DNA of 64,000 bases from Bacteroidales bacterium (GTDB taxonomy: Bacteria; Bacteroidota; Bacteroidia; Bacteroidales; WCHB1-69): contig JAEEQA010000005.1 in NCBI GenBank assembly GCA_016285085.1, forward strand, positions 1 through 64,000, written 5' to 3'. Both the position numbers and the translations under genes were made by a program. The notes beneath the pieces are model-generated. The model saw only the letters and a list, made by a program, of their open reading frames with translations, was not told where the DNA came from and ran no database searches. Numbering within the stretch: position 1 is the first letter of the stretch; every line of letters begins with the position of its first letter. This document shows positions 2,937 through 19,641 of the stretch, piece after piece.

Positions 2937-4028
2937 CTATTGGACAATCATTCCGTTCACATTGATGATCTGGCTGGAGTTGGTGGGCGAGTTGGAAATG
3001 ACCTCGATGGAGGCGTTCTGTCTGCCGCGGCGGTTCTTCCCGTTGAGGGTGAGGTCGAGGGTGGCGGACTGTCCGGGTGCGATTTCCGTCGCCGAGATCT
3101 TGTAGGTGAGGACTTGAGGCATGCTGGACTCAATCTTGCGGATGATCAGATTGGTTTTGCCGGTGTTGGTGATTTTGATTGTTTCTGAAACGCTGGTGTT
3201 CTGTACAATCGTGTCGAATCTGAAGGCGGTCTTGTCAAAACTGATCTTCGGGGCTTTTTCCAGCTCCTTTTGTGACATTCTGGAGAAGTCTTCTACAAGA
3301 TTTACATTGAAATACAAATACTTGCGGGGTTCAAGCGTATCGTCGGTAACGATGACTGCCTTGTCTTTGAGGTTGCCCCAGTCATTGCGCTTGGTGGCGT
3401 CGTATTTGAGAACGATGTAGCCTTCGTAGTCGGCGGGAAGGGTTTTGCCGAAACTGCGGCCCACTTCCTGGATGTATTCGGGAAGTTCAAGGTTGAAGGT
3501 GGTGGCACGGCCGTTGTCGTAGAAGCTGCGGATATGGAAAGTGTCGATATGGCTGCCCGTGTTCTTGACCTGGAAGCGGACGGTGGACTCCTTCACGCGC
3601 ACCTCGCCGCGACCGGACTTGTAACCGGCGATCTCATACTTTGTGGGGGGGCGTTTGATTACATTGCCCTTGATGAAGATGATGTACGGGTTGGCCTGAT
3701 TGGGCTCGTTGGTCGAAACCTTGATGTTCTTGTTGAACTGTCCGGGACGGCCCCACGGGTCGTAGGTGGCATCGATAAAACCGGTCTGACCGGGCATCAC
3801 GGCTTCCTTGGTGTAGTTGGCCGCAGTGCAACCGCAACCGGGTTTCACGCGGGTAAGCACCAGTGCGCTGTCTCCCACATTCTTGAAGGTGAAACGGGCC
3901 GTTACTTTGCCGCCTTCCTCGCGGATGTCGCCAAATTCATGTGTCTTCTTTTCAAATTCAATCCGAGGTTGGGCCATCGCAAACAAAACGGCCACCATCA
4001 TCACTAATGATAAGAATCCTTTTTTCAT
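2937..4028 (-). CDS. DUF1573 domain-containing exported protein
   Basis: MKKGFLSLVMMVAVLFAMAQPRIEFEKKTHEFGDIREEGGKVTARFTFKNVGDSALVLTRVKPGCGCTAANY; trimmed to the signal-peptide ATG. Confidence 0.85.
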   Translation of the reverse strand: MKKGFLSLVMMVAVLFAMAQPRIEFEKKTHEFGDIREEGGKVTARFTFKNVGDSALVLTRVKPGCGCTAANYTKEAVMPGQTGFIDATYDPWGRPGQFNKNIKVSTNEPNQANPYIIFIKGNVIKRPPTKYEIAGYKSGRGEVRVKESTVRFQVKNTGSHIDTFHIRSFYDNGRATTFNLELPEYIQEVGRSFGKTLPADYEGYIVLKYDATKRNDWGNLKDKAVIVTDDTLEPRKYLYFNVNLVEDFSRMSQKELEKAPKISFDKTAFRFDTIVQNTSVSETIKITNTGKTNLIIRKIESSMPQVLTYKISATEIAPGQSATLDLTLNGKNRRGRQNASIEVISNSPTNSSQIINVNGMIVQ

Positions 4029-17269: not shown

Positions 17270-18703
17270 TTACGATTTGGAGGGAGCAAACAAGTCCGCC
17301 AGTGTAATCTGTTTCTGAACTTGTCCGCTATATTTGTTCTTTTTGACTCCAAAGGAGGTTATCAATGTCAGCATCAGGGATTTTCTGGTATTGGTCTGCC
17401 GAATGAAAGTCTCCAACTTATTGTCGAAATCATCCGCATCTGTTCGGGTGATTTCATATTCGGCGCGTGAGAATTTCATTTCGCACACATTGATGGTCTG
17501 GTCGGCGCGATCAATGAGGAGGTCTATTTGTGCACCATTGCCACCGTCGTCTGCTTTGGCGAGCCAACTGCACACACGGCTCTGTACGCCGGCAATACCC
17601 AATGCCTGTTTGATTTGGGCGATATGATTCAGACAGAGCATCTCAAACGCATAACCGCTCCACGCCCGATATCGTGGACTGTTGAGCGAATTAGTCCAAA
17701 AAGTCTCGTCTTGATAGGCGTTTTCGTTGGCAAAATGAAAATGGAAAAGTGTGAATGCGTCCATCAGCTGGTAGAGCACATCGCGTTTGGTCTTTCCAAA
17801 GGGAACATACTGACGGATAAAGCCGCATTTTTCCAATTCATCCAATGTCTTTGTGAATTTTTGGTTGTTGTTCAAGTCTGTTTGTTGCAGTATTTCTTTC
17901 CTTGTCAGCCCTTTCGTCTTGGTTGCCAGTGCCGTCACAATTGCGATATGGTCTCCCGCCTGTTTGTAGAGTGAACGATACAAGTTTTCAAACTCCCCTT
18001 TCAGTTCACCGTTACTTGCAAAAAATAGCCGGTCGATATTTTGGGCCACACTCTCGTCAGGTCTCATCAATGAATAGTAGTAGGCCACTCCCCCCATTGT
18101 CATATAACATTCTGCAATCTCCTCTTGGCGGAAAGAAAATCCGAAGGCTTTAAAATACTGTTCACTTTCGTGAAGAGTGAAGGGAGCAACATATATCTGA
18201 TGTGTTTTGCGGTTATGCAATCCTCCTCTATTGTTGATGATATTGTCAATCATCCAAGAAGTTGCAGAACCACAAACAATGAGCTTGATGTCATTGCGGG
18301 AGGATGCCCAAGCATTCCAAAAATGCTCCAAAGCCCCAATAAAATTGGAACGTACTGTGTCCAACCACGGAAGTTCATCAATAAAAATGATTTTTTTTGT
18401 TTTAGAACAAGTTTCCAAATAATTTTCCAGCTCGTCAAAAGCTTCCAGCCAAGATTTGGGATGGGTAGCCTTTGTATAGACTTTTCGCAAAGCGAAGTAA
18501 AAATTAGCCAGCTGCTCTTGCAGTCCGGAATTCTCCATTCCCGTCAGTGTGAAACAAGCACTCTCTCCTATTGTTTGCCGTACAAGAAATGTTTTGCCGA
18601 CACGTCTTCGGCCATAGATTGCAATAAATTCCGACTTGTCATTGTGGAGGTATTCTTGTAATAATTTGATTTCCAAGTATCTGCCAATTATTTTGTCTTT
18701 CAT
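17270..18703 (-). CDS. COG1672-type AAA ATPase with C-terminal DUF234-like nuclease-fold domain
   Basis: YGRRRVGKTFLVRQ Walker A, IIFIDELPWLD Walker B, C-terminal AQIDLLIDRADQTINVCEMKFS. Confidence 0.88.
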   Translation of the reverse strand: MKDKIIGRYLEIKLLQEYLHNDKSEFIAIYGRRRVGKTFLVRQTIGESACFTLTGMENSGLQEQLANFYFALRKVYTKATHPKSWLEAFDELENYLETCSKTKKIIFIDELPWLDTVRSNFIGALEHFWNAWASSRNDIKLIVCGSATSWMIDNIINNRGGLHNRKTHQIYVAPFTLHESEQYFKAFGFSFRQEEIAECYMTMGGVAYYYSLMRPDESVAQNIDRLFFASNGELKGEFENLYRSLYKQAGDHIAIVTALATKTKGLTRKEILQQTDLNNNQKFTKTLDELEKCGFIRQYVPFGKTKRDVLYQLMDAFTLFHFHFANENAYQDETFWTNSLNSPRYRAWSGYAFEMLCLNHIAQIKQALGIAGVQSRVCSWLAKADDGGNGAQIDLLIDRADQTINVCEMKFSRAEYEITRTDADDFDNKLETFIRQTNTRKSLMLTLITSFGVKKNKYSGQVQKQITLADLFAPSKS

Positions 18704-18726
18704 ATTTACTTAATTATCATTAATGA

Positions 18727-18820
18727 AATCTGCTGCAAAGATATATAAATATTTCATTTCAGCAACTTTCAGTGTTGAAATCTGCTGAAATAACATTATT
18801 GACATCTCATTTGAGCAGAT
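18727..18820. promoter_or_regulatory. Four-copy alternating operator-like array overlapping the ATPase promoter
   Basis: TCTGCTGCAAA (+,18729), TTGCTGAAAT (-,18756-18765), TCTGCTGAAAT (+,18781), TCTGCTCAAAT (-,18809-18819). A -7 element TATCTTTG (minus, 18736-18743) overlaps copy 1. Confidence 0.65.
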
Positions 18821-18921
18821 TCTAAATTGCAATGATCATTATCCCTTTGCGAGATGAAACAATAAAAATCCTTAAAACATTACTTTTTGTAATTTATACT
18901 TGCTTTTTGTAAAGTTTTGTG

Positions 18922-18971: not shown

Positions 18972-19451
18972 ATGAAAAACACGAAATTCTTATTGCCAAG
19001 CAATTACAAAAAAGCAGGATGGTGGATACTGGGAATCACCCTCGCATTGATTGTTGTTTATTTTTCTATGGATGGCGACTTGAGTATCAATTATCTTCGG
19101 GAGCTGTTCGGAATGGAGCCTTTGGAGAGCAAGGCGTACTTCTCCTTATTCGGGCCGAACGCCGACCTGCTGCTGACACTGATAGGCATTCTACTCATCG
19201 TGGGCGGCATTTTCATCGGCTTTTCCCGCAATAGGGAAGATGACGAATTTATTGAGCAGCTCCGGTACGAGTCTCTGATCTTGTCGCTGTACATCAACAG
19301 CGGGCTTATGCTGCTCTGTTTGATTTTTGTGTGGGGCTTTGATTTTCTGACGGTAATGCAGTTCAATGTCTTCTCCACCCTATACGTCTTCATTATATGT
19401 TTTTACCTTCGTTTGTATTTTAATAAACGTTCTTTGCGTCATGAAAAATAG
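18972..19451 (+). CDS. Membrane protein, conserved hypothetical (partner of XRE regulator)
   Basis: MKNTKFLLPSNYKKAGWWILGITLALIVVYFSMDG; four hydrophobic segments; overlaps the next ORF by 11 nt. Confidence 0.75.
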   Translation: MKNTKFLLPSNYKKAGWWILGITLALIVVYFSMDGDLSINYLRELFGMEPLESKAYFSLFGPNADLLLTLIGILLIVGGIFIGFSRNREDDEFIEQLRYESLILSLYINSGLMLLCLIFVWGFDFLTVMQFNVFSTLYVFIICFYLRLYFNKRSLRHEK

Positions 19452-19641
19452 ACTAAAAGTGGCTCGTGCCGAGATGAATATCACGCAGGGCGAATTGGCA
19501 GAAAAAATCGGTGTGACCCGTCAGGCGGTAAACTCCATTGAATTAGGAAAATACGTTCCCAGCACCTTGCTGGCGCTGAAGATGGCGCACTACTTCGGCA
19601 AGACGGTGGAGGAACTTTTCATGCTGGAAGAGGGAGATTGA
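19441..19641 (+). CDS. YozG-like XRE-family transcriptional regulator
   Basis: MKNRLKVARAEMNITQGELAEKIGVTRQAVNSIELGKYVPSTLLALKMA. Confidence 0.9.
   Translation: MKNRLKVARAEMNITQGELAEKIGVTRQAVNSIELGKYVPSTLLALKMAHYFGKTVEELFMLEEGD

Follow-up and report, generated by a model that had tools for sequence, protein, structure and literature searches.

A family of ATPase/nuclease genes with gene-specific operator-like arrays at their promoters that diverge in step with the residues predicted to read DNA

The genes of a very common but uncharacterised bacterial ATPase/nuclease family, which is a candidate anti-phage family, carry at their own promoters a private set of regularly spaced sites, and the sequence of these sites changes in step with residues of the protein's own winged-helix domain. 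The case was first met in a window of 64,000 nucleotides (the whole stretch of DNA analysed), which lies in contig 3 of a 2.58-Mb Bacteroidales-type genome (G000). Across about 180 relatives, mostly from Bacteroidota but also from Firmicutes, Spirochaetes and Lentisphaerae, the word of the sites differs from gene to gene while the geometry is fixed, with a period of 52-54 bp (five helical turns) and with dyads phased at 10.5 bp to the -7 box. The ATPase itself almost certainly binds the array, most likely as an autorepressor, although binding and repression are not shown by experiment, and we put the probability of this reading at about 0.84. Unexpectedly, about 40% of the relatives also have a direct copy of the array just after the stop codon, and some cassettes end exactly at these arrays.

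Are the four sites in the window real? The initial annotation described TCTGCT(G/C)AAAT-like sites at 18729 (+), 18756 (-), 18781 (+) and 18809 (-) in alternating orientation and at regular spacing, the first overlapping the -7 box TATCTTTG of the ATPase gene. We confirmed this observation: all four sites are there, the last two matching TCTGCTSAAAT exactly and the first two with 2 mismatches, and the overlap is as described. The spacing, however, is better described as alternating, since the cores are 29, 23 and 30 bp apart. The sites are half-sites of an array of two inverted dyads. Read on the strand of the gene they form D> <C B> <A, in which C and B stand back to back, and the direct repeat has a period of 52-53 bp. 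The features are collected in the table below. Taken alone the window says little, because single matches to the loose motif are no commoner than chance (35 seen, 32 expected) and the inverted repeat of the window is only borderline against shuffles (p about 0.05). What puts the array beyond chance is the comparison with relatives, including the family dyad score (22.5 for locus L001, against a shuffled 95% limit of 6.7).

Coordinates in the window of the ATPase gene, its array and the related features
Position	Strand	Feature	Support
17270..18703	-	ATPase gene, 477 aa: ATPase_2 (PF01637), winged helix and DUF234-like PD-(D/E)XK nuclease; PADLOC candidate defence PDC-S27	PADLOC model, E 6.4e-202 over residues 1-472; invariant G31..K37-T38, D109-E110, E408 and K410, D394 nearly invariant
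18727..18739	-	Half-site A (GCAGCAGATTTC on the minus strand), core G at about 18733; overlaps the -7 box	
18756..18768	+	Half-site B, core at about 18762; with A forms the promoter-proximal dyad	Core to core 29 bp
18777..18791	-	Half-site C (ATTTCAGCAGATTTC on the minus strand), core at about 18785	52 bp from A
18809..18821	+	Half-site D, core at about 18815; with C forms the distal dyad	Core to core 30 bp; 53 bp from B
18736..18743	-	-7 promoter element TATCTTTG of the ATPase gene, enclosed in the spacer of dyad A/B	Dyad centre about 4.5 bp upstream of the box start
17759..17956	-	Codons 250-315: winged-helix domain (helices 250-259, 268-275, 281-292; wing 296-313)	AlphaFold2 model, mean pLDDT 91.8
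17828..17869	-	Codons 279-292: start and body of the recognition helix	Residues 279, 280 and 282 covary with half-site positions d12, d13 and d17
17783..17785	-	Codon 307: wing residue (R)	Covaries with half-site positions d9 and d11
17474..17524	-	Codons 394-410: PD-(D/E)XK nuclease motif (IDLLIDR...INVCEMKF)	Conserved residues; DUF234 match weak
17270..18822	.	Insert relative to the empty site of a sister genome (G005/L181), from the ATPase stop codon to the outer edge of half-site D	Right-hand edge uncertain by a few bases next to a 40-bp indel

The protein matches the PDC-S27 model of PADLOC over its full length and has the Walker A and B motifs of a P-loop ATPase. Its ATPase plus PD-(D/E)XK architecture is as described for PDC-S27 (PMC12988326). 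The residues of the C-terminal PD-(D/E)XK nuclease are conserved, although DUF234 is below the Pfam cut-off in the window protein and was found in 15 of 52 members. Protection against phage was not assayed here, and in the literature PDC-S27 is likewise an abundant family of Archaea and Bacteria without experimental validation (PMC12988326), so that a defence role is only a candidate annotation. A search of the PDB by sequence returned nothing relevant. By fold (Foldseek), the best match is the archaeal Walker ATPase PABY2304 (PDB 2qen, E 4e-14). This protein and the 'AAA+ ATPase fused to HTH and RecB nuclease' of arCOG03166 (PMC4158269) share the type of domain architecture and are suspected defence or plasmid genes, while DNA targets of these proteins are not described in what was read.

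If the array serves the ATPase gene, it should be found upstream of orthologous ATPases, and absence from close orthologues had been proposed at the outset as grounds for rejection. To this end, ATPase loci (L numbers) were collected from 118 near genomes and 80 named contigs; a search of 250 genomes of the phylum gave few further members. All 12 homologues of 67-96% identity with readable promoters (L099-L110 less duplicates, and L120), from different rumen and gut Bacteroidales, keep GAAA-N-Y-TGCTGAAAY-like words in alternating orientation. At about 56% identity the word has drifted (TTTGCGCAGATTAT in L111; TTGGCGCAATCT in L113-L115), and remoter members each have another inverted word. The second ATPase of the window's genome (G000 contig 121:2868-4316, L002), 42% identical, has a different inverted word, TTTTTTGATG / CATCAAAAAA. 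In the 130 nt upstream, inverted-repeat scores exceed all shuffles in 59 of 82 ATPase promoters, and a score of 12 or more is reached in 77% of these promoters against 10% of 52 other promoters from the same genomes (p 1e-13). Is there selection for different words within a genome? None of 73 within-genome pairs has similar operators (>=0.8), but this is no lower than background.

The geometry does not follow the word. In 114 non-redundant genes under 80% identical, direct-repeat offsets pile up at 52-53 bp and its double, against about 0.3 per offset in shuffles. An independent set of 68 genes from other Bacteroidota repeats this, with a top offset of 52-54 in 29 of them. After the half-sites were registered on the dyad centre, the family profile shows an A/T-rich centre, TTT at d9-11, G at d14 in 91%, variable bases at d12-13 and d15-19, and TAT near d20-22. 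The dyad score of real promoters exceeds the shuffled 95% limit in 99%. It should be noticed that this profile was learned from these same genes, and thus the dyad spacing is partly imposed, while the 52-53 bp period and the residue covariation are not. Four relatives (L123, L127, L138 and L172) show no good dyad. There are 3-6 half-sites in 112 of 182 genes. The last dyad encloses the -7 box in 50 of 148 genes, with its centre 4-6 bp upstream of the box start, and otherwise lies upstream in steps of 10.5 bp (R 0.83). The array scan was not extended to archaeal members.

Which protein reads the array? Mutual information between half-site bases and all alignable ATPase residues put residues 307, 279, 282 and 280 on top. 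In the model they lie at the start of the recognition helix (279, 280, 282) and in the wing (307) of the winged-helix domain. Random pairing gives a heavy-tailed null for this first statistic, and therefore the couplings named beforehand were tested in an independent set of 64 genes, where 279-d13, 307-d11, 307-d9 and 280-d13 came first to fourth of 9,360 cells. In the combined set of 168 genes the six strongest of 9,380 residue-base combinations are 307-d11, 280-d13, 279-d13, 279-d12, 307-d9 and 282-d17 (Z 18.5 to 9.5; permutation maximum 8.95). The statistics are only partly corrected for relatedness, and no full phylogenetic covariation model was run. The coupling K282-d17 was weaker in the independent set, and M314-d15 did not replicate and was dropped. 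Two further tests agree. A sliding-window partial correlation peaks at residues 271-291, and at fixed protein identity operator similarity rises with the number of shared residues 279/280/282, which none of 1,048 control triplets matches. The code is partly legible: Ser/Thr at 279 goes with TG at d12-13, Asp with C at d12 and mostly C at d13, and Asn with A at d13; Gly at 280 goes with G at d13, and Lys at 307 goes with T at d11.

The array also goes together with the ATPase gene rather than with its neighbours. The sister genome G005 has the urocanase and HTH genes at the locus but lacks ATPase and array together. The site is variable, since about 40 bp of the window next to the insert (18832-18871) are missing in G005, and another sister genome, G011, has about 1 kb with another gene between array and flank at the same locus. 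In 14 genomes with close homologues nearly all hits of the word fall in ATPase promoters. A genome-wide regulon was not supported: of the hits of GAAATCTGCTGAAAT at 0-2 mismatches in the window's own genome, which were inspected in part, those looked at fall in coding sequence, and only the array and one site on contig 65 stand out. The latter (3372-3386; L332/L004, about position 1500) is a 19-nt exact copy of the array word at the promoter of an Nmad2-Nmad3 (nucleotide-modification-associated) gene pair, at the same offset to the -7 TTTG as in the ATPase promoter. It is a candidate target in trans, and was not found in G011.

The best explanation is that the sites are the private operator array of the ATPase gene. 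In this view a dimer, or dimers in a row, of the ATPase would bind each inverted dyad through the winged helix, and the dyads, repeating every 52-53 bp, would all lie on one face of the helix. As the promoter-proximal dyad covers the -7 box, binding would most likely block RNA polymerase, a negative autoregulation that holds a potentially toxic ATPase/nuclease at a low level and keeps it parked on its own DNA. Since each family member has its own word, paralogues in one genome need not cross-talk. The initial annotation had guessed an operator array for a dimeric or oligomeric regulator, perhaps the ATPase itself, and this interpretation is supported; the helical phasing to the -7 box, the gene-specific code and the frequent array copy after the stop codon had not been seen. 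The analysis demonstrates the array, its geometry, its conservation, its phasing to the promoter and its covariation with recognition helix and wing, whereas the binding itself, the oligomeric state, repression rather than activation, and release by a trigger such as phage infection or a change of nucleotide state are inferences, as neither binding nor promoter activity was measured. The sign of regulation in particular rests on the overlap with the -7 box, and in about two thirds of relatives the last dyad lies upstream of it, where activation is conceivable. The data identify neither the trigger nor the target of the nuclease. In sites that overlap or phase with the gene's own promoter, the array resembles autorepressors such as lambda CI/Cro and toxin-antitoxin operons, which have inverted repeats in a row at their own promoters; here, however, the regulator is an ATPase-nuclease, every paralogue has its own word, and the array often recurs after the gene.

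One rival that does not exclude the operator reading, and that we hold only tentatively, is that the arrays are primarily the ends of a mobile cassette, which the ATPase/nuclease binds to move the gene or guard it at its site, with promoter control being secondary. A copy of the upstream array follows the gene in 74 of 182 loci (69 direct against 5 inverted; 1 of 182 in a mismatched control), for example in L034, L048, L113, L114, L140, L252, L254 and L274, and it starts a median of 4 nt after the stop codon. L034 and L048, 99% identical and at different sites in different genomes, share sequence only from the outer edge of the upstream dyad to the outer edge of the downstream dyad, and the insert in the window ends at the stop codon and the array edge. 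In L101 (3380-3460) the last codons of the ATPase (GATTTGTTTAACTGA) also stand upstream of its array, as if left by an earlier copy or a tandem or circular intermediate. The gene thus appears to travel as a cassette bounded by its own binding sites, though the data do not say whether the ATPase takes part in this. On the other side, the window and more than half of the relatives have no downstream copy, solo arrays are rare, the 10.5-bp phasing is unexplained by mobility alone, and direct repeats can also arise by tandem duplication. No transposase or recombinase is present, as the insert holds only the ATPase gene and the protein has no such domain. With regard to the terminal inverted repeats and constant target-site duplication of a transposon, the arrays at both ends are direct copies and occur in about 40% of loci only, and no constant duplication was noticed, which leaves this point undecided. 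A bolder reading, possible but less likely than not, is that each gene is a self-marked mobile (possibly immune) cassette, in which one private word, read by its own winged helix, serves as operator, as cassette boundary and perhaps as a 'self' tag that keeps the nuclease parked until an invader displaces it.

Other readings are very unlikely. The array might be an iteron/ORB-like replication origin and the ATPase an ORC/Cdc6-like initiator, since after 2qen the best fold matches are ORC/Cdc6 proteins, and Orc1/Cdc6 places an AAA+ protein with a winged helix on inverted repeats at origins. But the TM-scores are low (0.3-0.4 of the query), so that full-length fold and domain order do not agree, a nuclease domain is fused, the gene is a single chromosomal gene with many paralogues per genome and is absent from most relatives, the arrays are phased to a promoter, and there is no evidence of an origin. 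Even less likely is that another regulator owns the operators, for example the neighbouring HTH_3 protein (19441-19641), which lies next to the array and has a DNA-binding domain; the empty site keeps the HTH gene without the array, relatives sit in other gene neighbourhoods, and the words covary with ATPase residues. Equally improbable is an action in RNA as attenuator or terminator hairpins, which inverted repeats next to a promoter might suggest, because most dyads lie upstream of or across the -7 box and are not transcribed from it, there is no Rfam match, and helical phasing and residue covariation point to DNA.

Autoregulation as such is already known, but a family-wide set of private, co-diverging operator arrays for these ATPase-nucleases, doubling as cassette edges, was not found in the open-access papers searched, several of the searches being narrow. 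The principle may be wider, as some PDC-S01/DUF4143-like ATPases of the same genomes (L309, L310, L320, L323 and L327) carry gene-specific repeats at the promoter, such as TTTTTGCGATTGTAATCGCAAAAA twice in L309, with a period near 32 bp in a subset and no 53-bp period; this is possibly the same principle in the more abundant family. PDC-S27-type ATPases are among the commonest genes of unknown function in gut and rumen Bacteroidota and in Archaea (PMC12988326, PMC13356809). The present analysis gives, from sequence alone, the likely DNA target of nearly every examined member, a residue-to-base specificity code and a promoter architecture. This turns an 'ATPase of unknown function' into a protein whose binding, trigger and nuclease activity can be tested at once, and it supplies a large natural set of private operator-repressor pairs for Bacteroidota.
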